DNA of 49,472 nucleotides, taken from positions 1-49,472 of the IMG/VR virus record IMGVR_UViG_3300030616_000035, one strand, 5' to 3'. Both the position numbers and the translations under genes were made by a program. This DNA is from a virus. Below are positions 2,493-28,308 of this stretch, one piece after another; the first letter of the stretch is position 1, and each line of letters begins with the position of its first letter. A model generated the notes under the pieces. It ran no database searches, had not been told where the DNA came from, and saw only the letters and a list, made by a program, of their open reading frames with translations.

Positions 2493-3864
2493 AATGTTCT
2501 ACTACTGTCAAAGAGTAGAACACCCCGCACTGCTTTGCACTATGCGGAGTGGTAAGACTATTCTTACTATCAAGGATTTAATCTATCAGAATTACTTCCC
2601 TGCTTTAATTTGCGCACCTCTAAGCACGTTGTACGGATGGGAAGAAGATTTACAGAAAGTAAACATACCTAAAAGTGAATACCAAATCATAACCGGCACG
2701 AAAAAGCAAAAACAAAAATTAATAAAAAGTAAATCCTTTATAGTAACAAATAAGGAATTTTATATTTCGATACCAGAATTAATCGATAAGATACATTTTA
2801 AATCCGTGGTTTTTGATGAGTCTACGTTTTTGAAGAACTGTGGTATGTCTTATCGAAAACTTAGTGACGGTAGAAAAGTAAAAAAGCCAATAGCAATGAC
2901 TAATTTCTACCATACCAATTTCAGAAAACTAAAACGTAGGTATATTTTGACAGGTTCGTTTATGACCGGTCATGAATGGGATGCTTACGGACAATTAAAG
3001 TTTTTAGATCCATTGATATTTCCACAACGTAATTTTTGGGAATTTAAGAATAAATATTTTTACGAGTCCTGGAAATACAATTGGAAACTGAAAAGTGAAA
3101 AGAAAGATGAATTTTACGGTAAACTTAATGCTAAGTGCTGTTTTGTTACCCTTAATGATGTACGTGAATCAATCGGTAAAGGTGAATTAGAAGTTGATAG
3201 ATTGGTAAGAAGTTTCGAATTCAGTTCAAAAATTAAAAAGATATATGATAACCTAAAGAAAAATTTTATAGTGTCTTTGGAAGATAAACCTTTGTTTGGG
3301 TTTCAATATATACTACAACAAAGTATTTATTTACGCAAATTATGTTCTGGATTTATAACGCTTGATCCGGAAACCAAAGAAACCCAGTTAGTCGATGACA
3401 GTAAGTATAAATTACTTATGGATCTTATTAATATAGAAATCCCAGACTACAGGTGTATCATACTTTGTAGTTTTTATGATGAAATTTACACTATTGAGAA
3501 GTTTTTTAAGCAAAGTAAGAAAAAATATGTTACATTAACAGGGAAGAGTAAAAACAGAAACGAGATAATAGGTAAATTTCAGAAGGGCAAAGTACAATAT
3601 TTTATTGCAAATGTAGGTTGTGTAAAGCACGGGGTAACTCTTAGTAATGCAGATATAACTATAGACTTTAGTTCGCTGGTAGGCTCTGAAACGATAGAAC
3701 AGGCGGAAATACGCGGAACTGATATTTACAGAGATGATAAGCAAAGCATTATACACTTGATAGCTAAAGGTTCAGTAGAGGAGTATTTTTATAAGAAAAT
3801 AGGAAGGCAGGAAACTGAAAGAAAATTAAGAGAAGATTTTTTAAAATTTCTACGAAAGGATTGA
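2467..3864 (+). CDS. SNF2-like superfamily 2 DNA helicase
   Basis: Walker A is MRSGKT at residues 26-31, Walker B DEST at 117-120, and motif III is the LTGS segment near residue 160. The C-terminal half carries the second RecA-like domain, ending in a GSETIEQAEIRG segment that matches motifs V and VI, with a glutamine and arginine typical of SNF2 proteins. The size of 465 residues matches compact phage SNF2-type helicases, which translocate on duplex DNA in replication or recombination. The start lies inside the methyltransferase gene, 26 bases before its stop, suggesting coupled translation. It ends with TGA. Confidence 0.85.
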   Translation: MKLHTLQRRMFYYCQRVEHPALLCTMRSGKTILTIKDLIYQNYFPALICAPLSTLYGWEEDLQKVNIPKSEYQIITGTKKQKQKLIKSKSFIVTNKEFYISIPELIDKIHFKSVVFDESTFLKNCGMSYRKLSDGRKVKKPIAMTNFYHTNFRKLKRRYILTGSFMTGHEWDAYGQLKFLDPLIFPQRNFWEFKNKYFYESWKYNWKLKSEKKDEFYGKLNAKCCFVTLNDVRESIGKGELEVDRLVRSFEFSSKIKKIYDNLKKNFIVSLEDKPLFGFQYILQQSIYLRKLCSGFITLDPETKETQLVDDSKYKLLMDLINIEIPDYRCIILCSFYDEIYTIEKFFKQSKKKYVTLTGKSKNRNEIIGKFQKGKVQYFIANVGCVKHGVTLSNADITIDFSSLVGSETIEQAEIRGTDIYRDDKQSIIHLIAKGSVEEYFYKKIGRQETERKLREDFLKFLRKD

Positions 3865-4065: not shown

Positions 4066-4553
4066 ATATACTCTCTTTTGACACAGGTCTTAATGTAGGC
4101 TGGAGCATAATAAATATCCATAACAAAACGCTTTTAGAGTGGGGTATTAAACACTTCGATCTATCTGAAGGGATCGGCCAATATTGCGATGATTTGTGGG
4201 ACTATTTTTCTAATTTTTATTATGACATAGACATAATACGAATTGAAATGCCGGAGTTTTATGGTGATAAGAAAGGTATCATATCTGCGAAACGAGGTGA
4301 TTTATTTGTGGTTCATGCTTCGGCCATCACTATATATAATTTTTTTAGAGAATGTTTTGTAGAGTTAATAAAACCTAAAGAGTGGAAAGGCCAAATGGAC
4401 AAGAAAGCTACCGAAAACCGAGTAAAAATAATAATGGGTGATCAAATAAATAATATTTTAAAGTTGCCAAAATATAAAAAAGAGCATATATTAGATAGTA
4501 TAGGTATTGGATTATCTTACGATAAAGAATTATGGAGTTTGAGAAAGGAGTAG
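4062..4553 (+). CDS. RuvC-like Holliday junction resolvase
   Basis: The RNase H-like fold signature is visible: FDTG with Asp7 on the first strand, IEMP with Glu62 on the central strand, and KEHILDSIGIG with His142 and Asp145 in the last helix. These are the metal-binding positions of RuvC-type nucleases. The length (163 residues) is typical. The enzyme would cut branched DNA (four-way junctions, replication forks) before packaging. It sits with a nuclease, a Sak4-like ATPase and an SSB-like protein in the recombination cassette. It overlaps the preceding gene by ATGA. Confidence 0.8.
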   Translation: MNILSFDTGLNVGWSIINIHNKTLLEWGIKHFDLSEGIGQYCDDLWDYFSNFYYDIDIIRIEMPEFYGDKKGIISAKRGDLFVVHASAITIYNFFRECFVELIKPKEWKGQMDKKATENRVKIIMGDQINNILKLPKYKKEHILDSIGIGLSYDKELWSLRKE

Positions 4554-4557
4554 TGTT

Positions 4558-4731
4558 ATGATTATACATGGAAGCTTTTTAAAATCTGTTTGTATAAAGA
4601 TATGGGGTAGACCTGAAATTCCTGAGTTTGTGAAGGAAAATGAATTTATTATATGGAATAACATTGATGAACAGGATTTTAATGAATGGGATAGTTTACA
4701 AAATTTATGGATAGAATGGATGTGTAAATGA
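4558..4731 (+). CDS. Small acidic, Trp-rich protein of unknown function (57 aa)
   Basis: A 57-codon frame starts at ATG 4558 after a strong AAAGGAG site that lies within the last codons of the resolvase gene, and ends with TGA overlapping the next start as ATGA. This tight fit supports a real gene although it is short. The product has several Trp residues (IWGRPEIPEF, IIWNN, NEWDS, LWIEW) and many acidic residues in the C-terminal half. No family recognised. Confidence 0.6.
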   Translation: MIIHGSFLKSVCIKIWGRPEIPEFVKENEFIIWNNIDEQDFNEWDSLQNLWIEWMCK

Positions 4732-5633
4732 ATATAGAAAAACTTAAAAAAATAGGAATAAGCCATAGCAGACTTTCGACGTATAGATCTGGCTGTAAAA
4801 GAAAATTTTGGCTTACGATGAATAACTACATAAACCCGAATTCCACAAGTATTAAAAATACTCTGTTTGGTCAACTGTGTCATTATATATCGGAAAAATG
4901 TACAGAAGATAAAAACGTAAACGTTTTTATGGATTTATGTAATGTATATTGTAATCAAGAAGAAGAACAAGATCAATTATCAGTACTCGATCCTCAACTC
5001 ATTGAGCATGAAAAAGCCCTGGCATCTATAACTATGGAGTGCTATTATAAGTATCAAAATGCTTATGAAGGTTATACAGTATTGAAAAATGAGCTATATT
5101 TAAAACGTTTAAAAATAGGCAAGCACGTTTTTAATATTAAAATTGATAAGGTATTGAGAGATAAGAAAACGGGTGAAATTGCAATACTTGATCACAAGTG
5201 TAAAAGTAGGTTTAACGTTGATATTTTAGCAAAAAAGATTATTATAGATAAACAATTCCAACTTTACCGGAAAGGTTTTGAGACCGCTTACAAACGTAAA
5301 GTAGATAAAATTATATGGGATATAATACGGAAATCCGGTTTACGTATGACTAAAAAAGAGGATATGAATGGCTTTATGGATCGGGTAAAAGTGGACATAG
5401 AAAAAAGACCTGAGTATTATTTTATCTCTATACCGTTGATGTTAAGACCTGAGTATTGTAAAAACTTTGATAATGAATTAGAACAAGAAATGAACGAAAT
5501 ATATCGTAACTTGGAACAGGGAGAATCAGCATTTACAAGGAATACCGAGGTTTGCGATTCCCCCTTTTTATGTGATTTTTTAGACGGTTGTTCGTCCGGA
5601 AATATGGATTTATATATTAAACGAAAGGATTAA
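4728..5633 (+). CDS. PD-(D/E)XK nuclease with probable Fe-S cluster (AddB/Cas4-like)
   Basis: The core motif ILDHK places the catalytic Asp155 and Lys157; a preceding IKID and the GQLCH histidine complete a RecB-type PD-(D/E)XK active site, and QFQLYRKGFE is the usual helix after it. Cys23 near the N-terminus and Cys276, Cys282 and Cys288 near the C-terminus have the one-plus-three spacing that binds a 4Fe-4S cluster in AddB and Cas4 nucleases. Such phage exonucleases process DNA ends for single-strand annealing. Neighbouring Sak4-like ATPase and SSB-like genes fit this role. Cluster binding is an inference from cysteine spacing. Confidence 0.8.
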   Translation: MNIEKLKKIGISHSRLSTYRSGCKRKFWLTMNNYINPNSTSIKNTLFGQLCHYISEKCTEDKNVNVFMDLCNVYCNQEEEQDQLSVLDPQLIEHEKALASITMECYYKYQNAYEGYTVLKNELYLKRLKIGKHVFNIKIDKVLRDKKTGEIAILDHKCKSRFNVDILAKKIIIDKQFQLYRKGFETAYKRKVDKIIWDIIRKSGLRMTKKEDMNGFMDRVKVDIEKRPEYYFISIPLMLRPEYCKNFDNELEQEMNEIYRNLEQGESAFTRNTEVCDSPFLCDFLDGCSSGNMDLYIKRKD

Positions 5634-14329: not shown

Positions 14330-15097
14330 TTATACTACTTCCGCTAATTTCATTTTAATTCGCCAAAAATTTATATTAATTAGTTCGTCTTTGAAATCTA
14401 AAACTTTTACTGTAATTGGGTAGCTTCCACGTTTTGAGCCAAAAGGATTAGTCACCCCGGCTATATCAGCAATTACCATATTTCCACCTCGAATAGTTGA
14501 CAATAGATATCTACGAAAATTTTTCATATCAGTCTGGCTGAGTATAAAAATACCTTCAAAAATTCCAGTGTCTTTTTCGTGATCTATATACGTAAAAGTG
14601 TTGTCATAAGTATCTAATTTTTCTATTGTCCAGGTAGAGTCCCCGCGATAGCCTATCAATGGTTTTAGTGTAGGTAGAGAAGGTGTCCCGCTGTAAGGGT
14701 AAGGAGCTTCAACTAACTGCATAGTACACGACCATGTATAGCTTTTGAATTGTTTTTGCTTTCGTTTATCCCATTTTACTATTGTTGCATCAACACCCAA
14801 AGTATAATAAATATCTGCTCCGAAAATCTGATCCTCTATTATATTAAACTGCGATAAAGTAAAATAATTAGTTCCTCCGGCTCTATTGGCTTCGAATTGA
14901 TCTATAATATTGTCTACCTCAGTTTCTGTCCCGTAAAACGTAACTTTACTTTTGTAAATATCATTTGTAGCTCCGCGATCTACCGCCAACCAATTACCAT
15001 CAGCAGCTTGTATCCAGTTTAGTGCTGCGGTAGTATCAGGAACAGCATTAAACCTAAATACATCAAACTGTACTATATCAGTTCCGGTAACTCGCAT
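14330..15097 (-). CDS. Distal tail protein candidate
   Basis: This 255-residue protein follows the tape measure gene (TAATG overlap), the place of the distal tail (Dit-like) protein in siphoviruses. It has several Trp and Tyr residues, a KSYTWSCTMQLVEAPYPYSG segment and a repeated strand pattern (TGIFEGIFILSQTDMKNFRRYLLSTIRGG) consistent with a beta-sandwich. A ring linking tail tube and tip is the expected role. No sequence family was recognised; the call rests on order. Confidence 0.5.
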   Translation of the reverse strand: MRVTGTDIVQFDVFRFNAVPDTTAALNWIQAADGNWLAVDRGATNDIYKSKVTFYGTETEVDNIIDQFEANRAGGTNYFTLSQFNIIEDQIFGADIYYTLGVDATIVKWDKRKQKQFKSYTWSCTMQLVEAPYPYSGTPSLPTLKPLIGYRGDSTWTIEKLDTYDNTFTYIDHEKDTGIFEGIFILSQTDMKNFRRYLLSTIRGGNMVIADIAGVTNPFGSKRGSYPITVKVLDFKDELININFWRIKMKLAEVV

Positions 15098-17337
15098 TAA
15101 AAAACCACCCCGGCTATACGTCCAGATTCCGAAAGATCCAAAAGGGACTGTCTCAAAGCTTCGTTTTTATCTTCCAGGGTTTGATCTATCTGAGCGAGTG
15201 TATCTTGGTTTACATTGCCTTGAATTATGATATTTGTATCTCCGATAGTAACACCCATGTTTTTTTGCTGTTCTTTGGTCAATACCATTTCACCAGGATT
15301 GGCACGTATTAAATGCTGATCCCCGGTTGCAGACTTTCCGGCCTCTTGCTGTACTATACCACCCTTAGCGAATTTTTGAGCCGCTATAGTTGCGATACTT
15401 GCTGCCGTTGCTACGCCCTGCAATACAAGCATAGGTATTGCTGCCGGAAAACCTACGTTTGCAATGGTTTTTGTTGCACCTAAAGCACCGTTTATTAGTG
15501 CTTGAAAAATGGCCCGTCTTTTATTTTTCTCAAAAGCTTCACGTTCTACCGCTTCTATCAGCTTTGCTTTTTCTTCTTCTGATTTTTTAGAGTTTTTAAT
15601 ACGTTCTATTTGCTGTTTTTTATCGTGTGCAGTACGTTGTGAACCTATTGTGAATAAGGCATTCGAGATCATACTGGCCGAATCAATCGCGGTATTTATA
15701 TACGCTTTTTGTAATTCCCGCTTTTTTCTATCTTCTTCAATATACATTGCTGTGCGGGCTATAGACCATTCTTCCCGTTTACGTTGCATCTCCTCTTCTT
15801 TTTCCATGATTTGTTGATCTATAGTATATTTAAATTCTGCCTGTTCCTGGTATTTCGTAGCCATTTCTTCGAAGTACGAAACTGGTACTTTTGGAGTTTT
15901 AAAAGCCGCTGAAGGTGCAGACACCCCACCGCCTGAACTTGGCGTTTCTGTAGTACCACCTCCACTTGAGGCCGGTAAAGCTCCGCTTGAAACTCCTTGC
16001 ACGTTTTGATTTAACGCTTTTATAGCCTCGTTGACAGTTTCGATATTATTTAAAGCATCTTGCATAGTATCAGGACTAAACAAAACGCTTTTATGTGCTT
16101 GAAAGGCAAGTTGCGTATCTCTAATAGCTTCATATTCGGATCGTAATTCTTTTAGTCCTTGCATTTCTTCAACTATTGCATCGTTCATTTCTTCCTGTTT
16201 TTTAACGTCTTTTTGACTTAATAAGAACTTCCATGCTTGAGCTAATTCTGTTACTTCGGTTATTACCTTTGATAGTGCGGGGGCTAATACGTCTCTGGTA
16301 GTAAGCGCAAGTCCTTCTAAAGCACTTTTCATTTTTACCATTGCACCCGGGAGAGAATCAAGCATTGTATCGGCCATTCTTTTTGCTGATCCATCGGCGT
16401 TTTGTAATTCATTTGACAATACTGCTACATCATCAGCCGCACCAATTAACACAGTTGCGGCGGTTGAGCTTAATAGCCCGAACATATCTGTAGTATCGGT
16501 CAAATCAAGATTTAGAGATTTTAAGACTTTTAATTTTTCAACGAAAGTATCAGCTTTTTGTCCTGTCGCTGCGATAGCTTTTGAAGCTTTGGAATTACTA
16601 TCTGCAAGCTGAAGCATTACGCGCCTTGTAGCAGTACCGGCTTGACTTGAATCTATTGCACGATCAGCAAGCGCGCCCAAAGCTGCAGTTACATCTTCAA
16701 TACTGTTCCCGGATTCCGCGCCAATCGTACCTGCGTATTTCATAGCTTCTGAAAATTTATTCGCGTCTAAAGCACTCGAAGTAAAAGATTTTGCCATTAC
16801 ATCGACTACTTTATTAGTTTGATCTGCTTTAAGCCCGAATTGGTTTAATGTTTGAGTGGATATCGTTGCAGCTTCAGCAAGTCCTATTTGAGACATAGCC
16901 GCAAGATCTAATACTGCACTACCCGAAGCTAATATTTCATTTACTGTTTGTCCTAATTTCGCCTGTTCTGTATAAGCATCCATTACTTGACTTGCAGTAA
17001 AAGCAGTTGTAGCACCGTAATTTAAAGCCGCTTTTTCGAGTGCTTTAAATTGTTCTGTGGTAGGTTGTACTATTGCCTTGAGTTTTGCTGAGGCACCGGA
17101 GAAAGAAAATACTGATTTTACTGTAAAATCTAAAGCTTTTTTCGTAGCATATAAAGCCGCCGTAGTCCCAACAATAGAAGGTAATGCGGCGGATAAAGAA
17201 CTACCGAAACCTTTAGCACTTTTACCAGATTTCTTAAACTCTCCGTCATTTTCACGGAGATTTTTATTTATCTTTTTTAACTTAGCTGATATATCATCAA
17301 CTAATTCATATACATATTTTACTTTTTCGTTCGACAC
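15097..17337 (-). CDS. Tail tape measure protein (TP901 type)
   Basis: Residues about 95-260 hold the conserved block of TP901-type tape measures (TTAFTASQVMDAYTEQAKLGQTV, later SSALDANKFSEAMKYAGTIGAES and ADRAIDSSQAGTATRR). A Ser/Gly-rich linker near residue 465 is followed by a long charged coiled coil (about 490-640), a hydrophobic segment (GATKTIANVGFPAAIPMLVLQG) and a C-terminal IRANPGEMVLTKEQQ. The length of 746 residues predicts a tail of about 110 nm at the usual 1.5 angstrom per residue. The start is GTG, preceded by GAGG; it overlaps the end of the frameshifted chaperone frame. Confidence 0.92.
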   Translation of the reverse strand: MSNEKVKYVYELVDDISAKLKKINKNLRENDGEFKKSGKSAKGFGSSLSAALPSIVGTTAALYATKKALDFTVKSVFSFSGASAKLKAIVQPTTEQFKALEKAALNYGATTAFTASQVMDAYTEQAKLGQTVNEILASGSAVLDLAAMSQIGLAEAATISTQTLNQFGLKADQTNKVVDVMAKSFTSSALDANKFSEAMKYAGTIGAESGNSIEDVTAALGALADRAIDSSQAGTATRRVMLQLADSNSKASKAIAATGQKADTFVEKLKVLKSLNLDLTDTTDMFGLLSSTAATVLIGAADDVAVLSNELQNADGSAKRMADTMLDSLPGAMVKMKSALEGLALTTRDVLAPALSKVITEVTELAQAWKFLLSQKDVKKQEEMNDAIVEEMQGLKELRSEYEAIRDTQLAFQAHKSVLFSPDTMQDALNNIETVNEAIKALNQNVQGVSSGALPASSGGGTTETPSSGGGVSAPSAAFKTPKVPVSYFEEMATKYQEQAEFKYTIDQQIMEKEEEMQRKREEWSIARTAMYIEEDRKKRELQKAYINTAIDSASMISNALFTIGSQRTAHDKKQQIERIKNSKKSEEEKAKLIEAVEREAFEKNKRRAIFQALINGALGATKTIANVGFPAAIPMLVLQGVATAASIATIAAQKFAKGGIVQQEAGKSATGDQHLIRANPGEMVLTKEQQKNMGVTIGDTNIIIQGNVNQDTLAQIDQTLEDKNEALRQSLLDLSESGRIAGVVF

Positions 17338-17696
17338 GTCAAAGCCTCATCTAGTTTTCTGAAGTTCTTTTTTTGTTTTTCAATTTCTTTCTTATCTTCC
17401 CGGCCTTGATCTAAATAATATTCATAGATATTGATTGCTTCAAAGAATTTTGGATTAGTTTTATTGTAATCTAGCGGTTTACAAAATCCATTTTTAATTT
17501 GTCTATACTTGTTATACCAATGCTTTATTTGTAATGATAAATAAGTTAATGGGCATATATAAAACTCGTAATCTCCTATTACCCAAACCGGAGCGTGTGT
17601 GGGTTGTTCACAACCTCTTATTTTTTTGATTTGGTCATTCGTACACTCATCACACGATGAGTCTATTAATCCCGAATGCACCCCGGCAAGTACTAT
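17319..17696 (-). CDS. Frameshift extension of the tail assembly chaperone (gpGT-like T domain)
   Basis: The frame is open in the -1 phase relative to the upstream chaperone. Ribosomes that slip on GGGTTTA at 17702-17696 would continue here for about 125 residues, giving a fusion of about 283 residues. An independent start is unlikely: the only upstream start codon is a TTG without a ribosome site. The domain has six cysteines, including SSCDEC, RGC and YICP, which look like a zinc site, then a charged helical tail. In lambda the equivalent gpGT carries tape measure protein and tube subunits together. It overlaps the tape measure start. Confidence 0.75.
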   Translation of the reverse strand: MVLAGVHSGLIDSSCDECTNDQIKKIRGCEQPTHAPVWVIGDYEFYICPLTYLSLQIKHWYNKYRQIKNGFCKPLDYNKTNPKFFEAINIYEYYLDQGREDKKEIEKQKKNFRKLDEALTCRTKK

Positions 17697-18169
17697 AAAC
17701 CCACTATTTCGCTTGAAAGAAGTCCAGAAATAGAGATCAAACAAAAATATACTGAAGTCTGTATTTTTTGTGGTATCTTACTCCAATCTTTTTTTGAGAT
17801 ACAACCATCTTCTATTTCTACATCAATAAAATCATTCTTACCTACATCATATAATTTTTCTATATTAACTACTTGTGACCGGCATAACTCACCAATTTCT
17901 TTGTTTACTTTAATTTTATCTTCATTTTTTGTTTTTTCACTGGAAAGTTTTTCGATTATAATTTCTACTTTTTCTTTCTGTTCCTGGTTCCACGGTTTGA
18001 GGTGAAATACTGGTTGAAATTCCTCTGGAATCGGACACTCAATCTCATTTCCTTCTTTATCTTTTTCTATAACTTTTTTATATTCTTTTGGTGTATAATA
18101 CTCTACTGAATCACCATCAAAAGGTAGTAAACCTCTCATTTTGTCTCGTATGTTTTTGTCAAGTTTCAT
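17693..18169 (-). CDS. Tail assembly chaperone (gpG-like)
   Basis: The gene lies between the tail tube and tape measure genes, the fixed place of tail assembly chaperones. The 158-residue product is acidic and helical with long charged helices (about 75-110), as in gpG-like proteins, and is not expected in the finished virion. It ends EIVGL then TAG, and the last two codons plus one base form the slippery heptamer GGGTTTA, so part of translation should shift to -1 and add the downstream domain. AAAGGA ribosome site before ATG. Confidence 0.8.
   Translation of the reverse strand: MKLDKNIRDKMRGLLPFDGDSVEYYTPKEYKKVIEKDKEGNEIECPIPEEFQPVFHLKPWNQEQKEKVEIIIEKLSSEKTKNEDKIKVNKEIGELCRSQVVNIEKLYDVGKNDFIDVEIEDGCISKKDWSKIPQKIQTSVYFCLISISGLLSSEIVGL
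17696..17702 (-). promoter_or_regulatory. Programmed -1 ribosomal frameshift site GGGTTTA
   Basis: On the minus strand the chaperone ends ...GTG GGT TTA TAG. Read as X XXY YYZ, G GGT TTA is a canonical slippery heptamer in the right phase, directly before the stop. After a -1 slip the next codons (ATA GTA CTT) lead into the 125-codon open frame. The stop codon next to the site could slow ribosomes and help slippage. I did not identify a firm stimulatory stem-loop; GCCGGGG just downstream could take part in one. Confidence 0.8.
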
Positions 18170-18268: not shown

Positions 18269-19294
18269 TTAAGCCCTTGCACCTTGCAATAATTCAAAAG
18301 TTGCCTCATTTGGTATACTTGCTTGTATTGCTGCCGCTCCGTTGTGATTACGTTGACAAATATAATTTTGTTCGTAACTTACTAAACCCTCACGTTCAGC
18401 TAATGTATAAGGCATAAGCTGTGCGCGTGGAATATATACAGCCATGTGTGTACTTGCAGTGGAAAACGTAATCGGATAATTACTATCTGCAAGTAATCGA
18501 GCGTGTACATCATCAGTTGCAACGGTTAGTTGTAACGGGTTACAAGAAAATCTTGGTTTACGTGAAGCGATATAAAAATATTCGTATCCAGTAGTTTCGG
18601 ACTGATCTATAACTGGCTGTATATCGTTTCCAAGATCTAAAGAAAAACCGCTCACAAACTGGGTTACTCCATTGATAACCGCGGTAGCATTTAATAATTT
18701 TTCTGCTAAAGGCGTTTGCATCCCTGTAGGTTCCGGGATATTAGCGTTTGCTACGGTTACAATATCCTCAAATTTACCTTTGAATGTACAGGAAACCATT
18801 ATTTTCCCGTTATTTTCTGCTGATATTACAGCGTTGCCTACACATCCGGAAAAAAGATACGCTGTAGCATTTGGTGAAGCCCCTCCGAGATCCATTTCAA
18901 AAACTGCAATTGTCAAAGTTTCCGCGTCCATTTGTTTTAAAGGCTGCCAGCCTATTCCTGTGGTAGTATAAGCATTTTCATATAGGCCGCAACCTTGTAA
19001 TATTTTAGTCCAATTCGGTGCAGTTGCTACAGCTCCACCCCAATGTAAAGGGAAAGAAAAAGTGATATCACACGCTTGTTTTCCAGTAAGTCCGGACAAT
19101 TCCCCGTGATCACCAGTTGCAATGTTAGCAACATCCTCATCAAATTCAATTTGAGGTGAAATACCTATATCGTATATCCTATTGTTGAAATCTGCGTCAG
19201 CGGGAAACGTTGCGGATAAGTTCCATTCTGGAGTTCCTGCTGTAGTTTCCGCTTTCGTTACCGCGAACCTTAAATTTTTACTTGAAAACGCCAT
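18269..19294 (-). CDS. Major tail tube protein candidate
   Basis: The gene sits directly upstream of the tail chaperone pair, where the tail tube protein is encoded, and has its own strong ribosome site (AAGGAG) and a following terminator, as expected for an abundant protein. The product (341 residues) is beta-rich with alternating hydrophobic strands (GKQACDITFSFPLHWGG, GNAVISAENNGKIMVSCTFKG, VTQFVSGFSLDLGN). These resemble tail tube proteins that fold as a beta-sandwich, and the greater length suggests an added domain. Call based on order plus fold pattern. Confidence 0.7.
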   Translation of the reverse strand: MAFSSKNLRFAVTKAETTAGTPEWNLSATFPADADFNNRIYDIGISPQIEFDEDVANIATGDHGELSGLTGKQACDITFSFPLHWGGAVATAPNWTKILQGCGLYENAYTTTGIGWQPLKQMDAETLTIAVFEMDLGGASPNATAYLFSGCVGNAVISAENNGKIMVSCTFKGKFEDIVTVANANIPEPTGMQTPLAEKLLNATAVINGVTQFVSGFSLDLGNDIQPVIDQSETTGYEYFYIASRKPRFSCNPLQLTVATDDVHARLLADSNYPITFSTASTHMAVYIPRAQLMPYTLAEREGLVSYEQNYICQRNHNGAAAIQASIPNEATFELLQGARA

Positions 19295-25797: not shown

Positions 25798-26864
25798 TTA
25801 ACCCTCTTAGGGACAGATACCTCCGTAGTAAATAAAGGTATCTGTCCCTTTTTATTTACTATTTGTGGATTTTTCTTTTTAAACCTGGAGATTTGTCGAT
25901 TCTTATTAACGGGTTTAATTTTACCTACTTGTGCAGAAGTAAGAGGTATTAACTGGCACATACAATTCGGATGATAAGGATACCTAGGAACTTTGTTTTT
26001 AGGATAGACACCTTGACCGAAGCCGTATAAATTACCTCTCGCCCATAAATCACAAACGTCCGGCTTAGGGTGTCTTGCAGACAATACCGATTTTACCCCA
26101 ATTATTTTTTTATTAGATTTAGCTTCTAATAATACGGAATTCCCGTAGGCACTTGCTATTTCAGTTCGTGCAATACGTTCAGCATAATACTTTGATTTCG
26201 CTTTAACTGCGCGTTCTATTCCCTTATTTATTCCTTCAATTGATCCCTTATTTACCTGAGTAATTATATTCTGATAAGCTTTTTTTAAACGTGGATTTTT
26301 ATATCCAAGATTAGCAAGTTTATCAATTTGTTTCTGTGCTTTTTTTGCCTGTTTTTTAAAATCGGCAATCAGGGCGGAATCTTGTAAAGCTTTCTTTCCA
26401 TGCTTGACCAATTTTTCCATATACTCCGGGAGATCAGCTTTTATATCTTTAAGCTTAAAAATACCTTGTGCTGATTTCTGCCAGTTTACCGATTCGCCTA
26501 AATTAGCTTTTAAAACTGCGGAAATATTTTGTTTAGTTTTATTTATGTTTTTATGTATTGATTTACTTAGATTTAACTCACTTTTTACCCAAGTGTTTTT
26601 AAGTAACCATTTTTTAGTATTGGCTATTTCTGAAGTTGCTACAGCCGTACCGCCTAAAGCCATAGCATCAATTGATAAACCTAAAATTACGTTTGTAGTT
26701 TTAGGCTCAACTTTGTGTATGCCAAATAACTTATTGATAAGCTGATCGATATCTTTTTCTGTATAACCGGCTTTTTGTAAGTCCTTAACCACGGGAGTTA
26801 ATATTTTATCGTACTCCCGTCTAAATTTATCAAAAAGTTTATGATTCGGATTCGTTGTCGTCAT
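25794..26864 (-). CDS. Head morphogenesis protein (SPP1 gp7 / Mu gpF-like)
   Basis: The C-terminal half holds the signature of phage head morphogenesis proteins: YAERIARTEIASAYGNS near residue 229, then a conserved Cys-containing ARHPKPDVCDLWARGN and YPYHPNCMCQL near 305. The N-terminal half is helical. These minor head proteins are found inside the procapsid close to the portal. It overlaps the portal gene by 26 bases. The last 18 or so codons contain the terminator hairpin of the plus-strand repeat gene, so the C-terminus may have been altered by that insertion. Confidence 0.85.
   Translation of the reverse strand: MTTTNPNHKLFDKFRREYDKILTPVVKDLQKAGYTEKDIDQLINKLFGIHKVEPKTTNVILGLSIDAMALGGTAVATSEIANTKKWLLKNTWVKSELNLSKSIHKNINKTKQNISAVLKANLGESVNWQKSAQGIFKLKDIKADLPEYMEKLVKHGKKALQDSALIADFKKQAKKAQKQIDKLANLGYKNPRLKKAYQNIITQVNKGSIEGINKGIERAVKAKSKYYAERIARTEIASAYGNSVLLEAKSNKKIIGVKSVLSARHPKPDVCDLWARGNLYGFGQGVYPKNKVPRYPYHPNCMCQLIPLTSAQVGKIKPVNKNRQISRFKKKNPQIVNKKGQIPLFTTEVSVPKRVN
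25809..25857 (+). terminator. Terminator of the plus-strand repeat gene, inside the facing gene
   Basis: AGGGACAGATACCT (25809-25822) and AGGTATCTGTCCCT (25836-25849) form a perfect 14-bp stem with a 13-base loop, followed on the plus strand by TTTTTATTT. It lies 12 bases after the repeat gene stop and within coding sequence for the end of the head morphogenesis protein. Confidence 0.9.
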
Positions 26865-28308
26865 CGTCAGTATCTATATCTTTTTCTAATTCGGGCTTTC
26901 TCGTAGTTTGTTGTTTTTTAACAAGTTCCAAACCTTCTTCATCATCAGGAAATAAAATTTGATAAATTTCTATCTCACATTTATCTTTTGTATGCTGTGT
27001 AAAACTTGGATTTTCTGTAACTTCGATTAACTGTGTATACTTTTCCTGTGTCTGATTTGGTTTAAAATTTGTAGGATATTTTACATCATATTCGACGTTT
27101 TCACTTGTCCACTTGTTGAAAAATTCTCTTATCTTTTTTTCCACTTCAGTAGCAAGTCTTGACGATTCTTTAAGCGTAGATTCATAAGCAAAAAATTCAA
27201 AAGCATAAGCAAGTCCCGACTTGGCATCTTTAGATTTATTAATGCCTTGTACCCCGCTTTGCTCGGCAATCGAAATCAAAGCTTCCATATTTCTCTGTCT
27301 TTTATCAGCGAGTTCTTTTATCAAAGCAGGTTCAACGTTTATCATCTCCGGAGAACGTTGAGAATCATGAGGGTATGCTAAATAATTATTAGTTCCTATT
27401 GTCTTATCTTGCTCTTCCTGTGAACCGTCTTCCGGAACTGTAAGTATGCCAAAACCTTGATTTCTTTCAACTTCTCTACCCTCTGAGTCCTGATTAAAAA
27501 TAGTGTAATTTATTTTTGCTAATTGATATCTTGGAGTATCAGCAAACAAAATTTTAGGATTATCCAGTGGTTCCTCATAAAAAAGATAACAGGGTAATTC
27601 ACCGAAATCATGTAGTTTTGATTCTACAAGTTCATATTTATCTTGAAAAGTTTTTGCTTCCGATGAATATTCTTTTTCTCTGTACAGTATTGATTCTGTA
27701 ACTGTCCATTGCCGATAATATTTTATCACTGCATTTTTTTCAACAACTTGATGATCAAAATACATAACATCAATCATTCTGCCGTTATCATCAAAATTAG
27801 TTCCATCTGCATTTAATTCATAAGCCTTTTTCATATAACAATATGGGTATGTTTTTTTATCCACGACTTCGGTTTTTAATTCTACACCCTCTTGACTTTT
27901 GTTGTCAACAATGAGTAAAACCATTCCATGCATACGAATATATTTTACAAGCAGTTTTACGAAATTTGTTAAATCAACTCCATAATGTGTACAGTCATCT
28001 ACAAACAAATCGTATACTGCATTACTTCCGTAATCTCTTTGTATCTGTTCTGAAAACACCGCTTTATACATTGCCGTGATAACCGGCCCAGTGTAATTGG
28101 CATAGTGAGCTAACTGCATACGTTTGTCGTAAAACATTTCTCTGTGATGTGGAACTAAATATTTACCAGATTTAAAACCTCCAGTTCCCTTAAATGCTTC
28201 TTCAATAAATTGATATTTATCTACTTCTAAAACATCAATTGAGACGTTTCCTGACGTTGAGTTCGGTTGATCCTGGGTTGTTTCGTCAAATTTTACTGTT
28301 TCAGCCAT
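26839..28308 (-). CDS. Portal protein
   Basis: The 489-residue protein lies directly after the terminase large subunit and before the head morphogenesis gene, the standard portal place. Features include HHREMFYDKRMQLAHYANYTGPVITAMYKAVFSE near residues 55-90 (stem/wing region), a KLLVKYIRMHGMVLLIVD segment near 125, and the AEQSGVQGINKSKDAKSGLAYAFEFFAYESTLKESSRLATEVEKKI segment near 345-390, typical for dodecameric portals. The C-terminus is acidic (DIDTDDDDNESES). Good AAAGGA site before ATG. Confidence 0.85.
   Translation of the reverse strand: MAETVKFDETTQDQPNSTSGNVSIDVLEVDKYQFIEEAFKGTGGFKSGKYLVPHHREMFYDKRMQLAHYANYTGPVITAMYKAVFSEQIQRDYGSNAVYDLFVDDCTHYGVDLTNFVKLLVKYIRMHGMVLLIVDNKSQEGVELKTEVVDKKTYPYCYMKKAYELNADGTNFDDNGRMIDVMYFDHQVVEKNAVIKYYRQWTVTESILYREKEYSSEAKTFQDKYELVESKLHDFGELPCYLFYEEPLDNPKILFADTPRYQLAKINYTIFNQDSEGREVERNQGFGILTVPEDGSQEEQDKTIGTNNYLAYPHDSQRSPEMINVEPALIKELADKRQRNMEALISIAEQSGVQGINKSKDAKSGLAYAFEFFAYESTLKESSRLATEVEKKIREFFNKWTSENVEYDVKYPTNFKPNQTQEKYTQLIEVTENPSFTQHTKDKCEIEIYQILFPDDEEGLELVKKQQTTRKPELEKDIDTDDDDNESES

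Follow-up and report, generated by a model that had tools for sequence, protein, structure and literature searches.

How does a phage express a reading frame that opens directly ahead of its tape measure gene and carries no start codon of its own? The question is raised by a 49.5 kb metagenome-derived virus record, the whole of which (49,472 nucleotides) we call the window. Its minus strand carries a head and tail module that is read in this direction, in the order: terminase, portal, major head protein, tail completion protein, tail protein, a short ORF termed G, the start-less frame termed T, and the tape measure protein. The reading that we favor, at a probability of roughly 93%, is that G and T form a G/GT tail assembly chaperone pair of a long-tailed phage, made by programmed -1 ribosomal frameshifting at the slippery heptamer GGGTTTA, as the reading frames and their conservation in relatives suggest.

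All window features described here lie on the minus strand. The tail protein gene 5' of G (18269..19294), which holds the same position in the relatives, matches phrog_290 (minor tail protein, E 1.2e-7); its position together with the PHROG match makes the major tail tube protein the likely product. G itself (17693..18169) encodes 158 amino acids from an ATG start to a TAG at 17695-17693, and its 3' end reads AGC GAA ATA GTG GGT TTA TAG, placing the heptamer G GGT TTA (17696..17702) in phase and immediately 5' of the stop. The -1 frame is open from 17777 to 17322 (152 codons, 125 of them past the shift) and stops at 17321-17319. T, taken as its extension from the heptamer to this stop (17319..17702), overlaps by 19 nt the tape measure gene (15097..17337, GTG start at 17337; phrog_1533, E 1.5e-58; PF10145, E 6.7e-25). 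It comprises a Cys-rich domain (C..C...C...CP) followed by a long helix. No ATG was found in the T frame of the window, and the only ATG, GTG or TTG codons ahead of the T domain are TTG 17744 and GTG 17681, before neither of which was a Shine-Dalgarno sequence found. As in the lambda-type arrangement, the tail tube gene and the tape measure gene thus enclose a pair of overlapping ORFs, the first with an in-phase canonical heptamer near its end and the second start-less and open across the heptamer in the -1 frame. A sequence-only reading of this DNA had described the heptamer at the end of G, the start-less frame of about 125 codons running into the tape measure gene, and the likeness in order and overlap to lambda gpG/gpGT; each of these observations holds.

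Frame change might be sought elsewhere in G, at an A-run, by ribosomal or transcriptional slippage. Two further heptamers are in phase, AAAAAAT at 17930 and AAAAAAA at 17795, and A-run heptamers are the commonest kind in neighboring phage groups. Both are followed by -1-frame stops, of which the final one is at 17780-17778, so that a product shifted by -1 at one of these runs would terminate before the T frame opens at 17777; hence, neither can lead into T, and the dismissal of the seven-A run as the working site by the sequence-only reading was right. Moreover, GGGTTTA is not a homopolymer, and it is the sole canonical slippery site in the G/T overlap of two relatives (L101 and L104, below). 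We give slippage at an A-run almost no credence.

In first-order simulations with the composition of the window, where 11.5 stops would be expected, a -1 frame stays open for 152 codons with a probability of about 5e-5. The chance that a canonical heptamer falls on the two final codons of G is about 0.016, and that of one anywhere in the final 28 codons is about 0.33; given this latter value the heptamer alone is weak evidence, and it is conservation in relatives that decides. Judged from the window alone, before comparison, the frameshift was plausible but unproven.

Single-sequence searches with the G, T, tape measure and major head proteins of the window against phages and IMG/VR found no relative of G or T. 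The portal search did yield a 7990-base uncultured-virus contig with a portal identical to that of the window (26839-28308), suggesting that assembly recovered the window phage, or one almost identical to it, more than once; this contig does not extend to the frameshift site. Relatives were recovered by profile searches, with the tape measure protein first and then with T, all being uncultured-virus contigs. Three distinct ones share the arrangement of the window: L101 (identical in sequence to L100, the two being assembled from two samples and counted as one), L104 and L182. The gene order of tail protein, G, T and tape measure is the same in L179, L181 and L182. An ORF antisense to the tail genes of L182 (1729-2331, minus strand) resembles, by eye only, an HNH-type homing endonuclease.

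Homologues of G are present in L101, L104 and L182, and all three carry the identical heptamer, in phase and at the aligned position, with 16, 16 and 13 nt, respectively, from its start to the end of the G stop codon. T is homologous too: the -1 frames of these relatives share 26-35% identity with that of the window (E 2e-9 and 5e-9, and 6e-14 pairwise). The homologous stretch starts with the residues GF, encoded by GGG TTT when read in -1: the aligned starts are GFIVLAGVHSG in the window and GFRILAGFHSG, GFRILAGYHSG and GFKVIAAIHAG in L101, L104 and L182. In the zero frame the same bases encode GL, which is retained at the end of G although G is otherwise poorly conserved. The only bases that encode both G-L and G-F in these two frames are GGGTTT with A or G as the next letter; the retention of both dipeptides is therefore the pattern that constraint on the heptamer would produce. 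The comparison with related phages that the sequence-only reading had proposed as a check thus found the same in-phase heptamer, joined to a start-less T, in three distinct relatives, and supports its programmed -1 frameshift.

This comparison also bears on whether the split between G and T is artifactual, that is, a sequencing or assembly error, or whether the -1 frame is an unexpressed, decayed relic. A metagenome-derived record invites such a suspicion; yet the identical split, with the same direction and heptamer, recurs in three other distinct genomes, one of them assembled from two samples, and T is conserved as a protein, with 11 invariant columns (C17, C20, C31 and C50 among them) in an alignment of five. 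Error or decay is, hence, extremely improbable.

T could instead be made as a separate protein, by termination-reinitiation at GTG 17681 or by a start at TTG 17744 inside G, leaving the heptamer coincidental. The GTG is suitably placed, just ahead of the T domain and 12 nt past the G stop, and T does occur as a separate gene with its own ATG in one lineage (below). However, beyond the want of a Shine-Dalgarno sequence at both codons, the place of GTG 17681 is taken in L101, L104 and L182 by codons for F, Y and I, so that reinitiation there is disfavored; past the heptamer, the earliest ATG, GTG or TTG in their T frames comes only at +312, +219 and +75 nt, when the conserved Cys region has already been entered or passed. 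Nor is TTG 17744 matched in these relatives, since their T frames open just 9-12 nt 5' of the heptamer. The homology of T also reaches 5' of GTG 17681, up to the heptamer itself. We regard independent initiation of T in the window as very improbable. For annotation this means that gene calling would overlook the T frame of the window or give it a spurious GTG or TTG start.

The lineage with a separate T is a distant one, represented by L183 and L185, near-identical contigs from two samples; their G and T are homologous to those of the window and keep the same place with respect to the tail genes. The sequence-only reading had held that loss of the heptamer with both frames kept would speak against frameshifting. 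Such a loss does occur here, as neither contig has the heptamer; the two frames are not kept as an overlapping pair, since G ends earlier and T, which does not overlap it, starts at its own ATG. T can accordingly exist as a separate gene and, where it is separate, has gained a start codon. L183 and L185 are, hence, an alternative arrangement and no contradiction for the frameshift of the window. Between the two genes, at 3933-3955 of L183 and in the same region of L185, is a perfect 7-bp hairpin (GGGCTGT-ACAG-ACAGCCC) followed by TTTTT, which ends 24 nt ahead of the start of T and has a z of -6.5. It looks like an intrinsic terminator or attenuator, but it is absent from the list of a terminator scan, so that an attenuator role is only an idea. 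On that idea a single chaperone family would have switched its route of keeping T below G, from the GGGTTTA frameshift in the window and three relatives to transcription attenuation at the hairpin in L183 and L185, where T is unlinked; we consider this switch rather unlikely. L183 also has a 230-aa ORF (4375-5067) between T and the tape measure gene, with no counterpart in the other relatives. Whatever the role of the hairpin, this lineage offers a natural comparison of fused with separate T.

Returning to the frameshift at GGGTTTA, signals that might stimulate it, of a sort that is common at such sites without being obligatory, were sought on both sides of the heptamer. Against dinucleotide shuffles, the 76 nt 3' of the heptamer fold with z-scores of -2.7 in the window, -3.5 in L104, -2.6 in L182 and +0.7 in L101; with the T amino acids and codon usage held fixed, the corresponding p-values are 0.011, 0.007, 0.075 and 0.75. 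A stem-loop is, thus, predicted in three of the four genomes, with L101 being the exception, and in the window it occupies 17633..17682. In these three genomes its outer stem is built from equivalent codons and starts 13-17 nt after the heptamer (about 13 nt in the window). The usual spacer between a heptamer and its stimulatory structure is 5-9 nt; with the longer spacer a stimulatory role is possible but not established. When the aligned downstream regions were folded to a consensus, the hairpin did not emerge, probably owing to a misplaced codon gap. In a reading by hand, the window, L104 and L182 all pair a CAT (His) codon with the same codons further 3', and the stem of L182 shows one U-A to G-C exchange. 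Altogether, the stem-loop as a putative frameshift stimulator is suggestive only. On the 5' side, L101 and L104 have GAGGA or GAGGAG, while no Shine-Dalgarno-like element was found 5' of the heptamer in the window.

Neither G nor T gave a convincing family match in Pfam or PHROGs. The structural model of G (mean pLDDT 78.7) retrieved several named tail assembly chaperones among viral models (BFVD), including those of Gordonia phage Teatealatte, Arthrobacter phage Molivia, Xanthomonas phage Suba and Halobacterium phage ChaoS9, all at E 0.008 or above. Against the PDB nothing was found with the G model, and no convincing match with the T model. The chaperone assignment therefore rests on gene order and frameshift architecture, and the predicted fold of G, which weakly resembles that of phage tail assembly chaperones, lends it slight support.

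On the frameshift model, the majority of ribosomes would translate G and terminate at the TAG. In a minority, tRNA-Gly on GGT and tRNA-Leu on TTA would slip back together by one base onto GGG TTT, after which reading would continue through ATA GTA CTT GCC into T. The predicted product is a GT fusion of 283 residues (17319..18169) with the junction EIVGL-IVLAGV. By analogy with lambda, the G part would bind the tape measure protein, the T part would recruit the major tail subunit, and keeping GT low relative to G would matter in tail assembly. We infer the synthesis of this fusion, the occurrence and frequency of the slippage and the protein contacts of G and T alike.

To place the locus among its neighbors, we considered 62 distinct loci with start-less -1 frames 5' of related tape measure genes, a set that was collected via tape-measure similarity and is not a random sample. 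An in-phase canonical heptamer is present in 53 of them, against 6.6 expected from codon shuffling, indicating that the mechanism is an ordinary one. The only members of the set with GGGTTTA are the window, L101 and L104 (L182 was recovered afterwards), and most other loci use A-runs, T-runs or GGGAAAC. Several candidates from these searches were set aside. The ORFs ahead of the similar tape measures of Flavobacterium and Cellulophaga phages are unrelated to G and T. In L009, whose tape measure is about 42% identical, the T similarity to that of the window is not significant, and it was not counted as a homologue; it has a different Cys-containing -1 frame (3417-3803) before the tape measure gene and an A-run heptamer (GTA AAA AAA AAC) 13-16 nt before the end of the G stop codon. 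A profile search with T in about 800 genomes of two bacterial phyla returned short, stop-ridden matches, which we took as false; T found no match in plasmids and none at a significant E-value among phage isolates. The literature searched did not yield GGGTTTA together with frameshifting, phage and tail.

The closest known system is the programmed -1 frameshift of lambda gpG/gpGT, which has counterparts in other long-tailed phages (reviewed in PMC5009743, citing Xu, Hendrix and Duda, 2004). The window shares with it the gene order, an upstream chaperone ORF with an in-phase heptamer near its end, and a -1 extension that has no start and ends at the tape measure gene. It differs in its Cys-rich T and in its heptamer, which is GGGAAAG in lambda; the named families show no detectable sequence similarity to G or T of the window. 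Two HK97-like phage tail chaperone frameshifts have been measured at 6-7% (PMC3711429): these are alike in gene class and kind of recoding and unrelated in sequence, and their efficiency may serve by analogy as a fair expectation for the window. The identical heptamer, as GGGUUUA, serves the -1 shift of gag-pol in the yeast L-A virus (PMC8780742), but there it acts on eukaryotic ribosomes and in unrelated genes. The L183/L185 lineage has homologous G and T, in contrast, while differing in the heptamer, the overlap, the ATG of T and the intervening hairpin with its T-run. The window thus joins the lambda G/GT group as a new member, in which a well-supported frameshift of uncultured phages combines a heptamer seldom seen among the loci examined with G and T proteins that match no Pfam or PHROG family.
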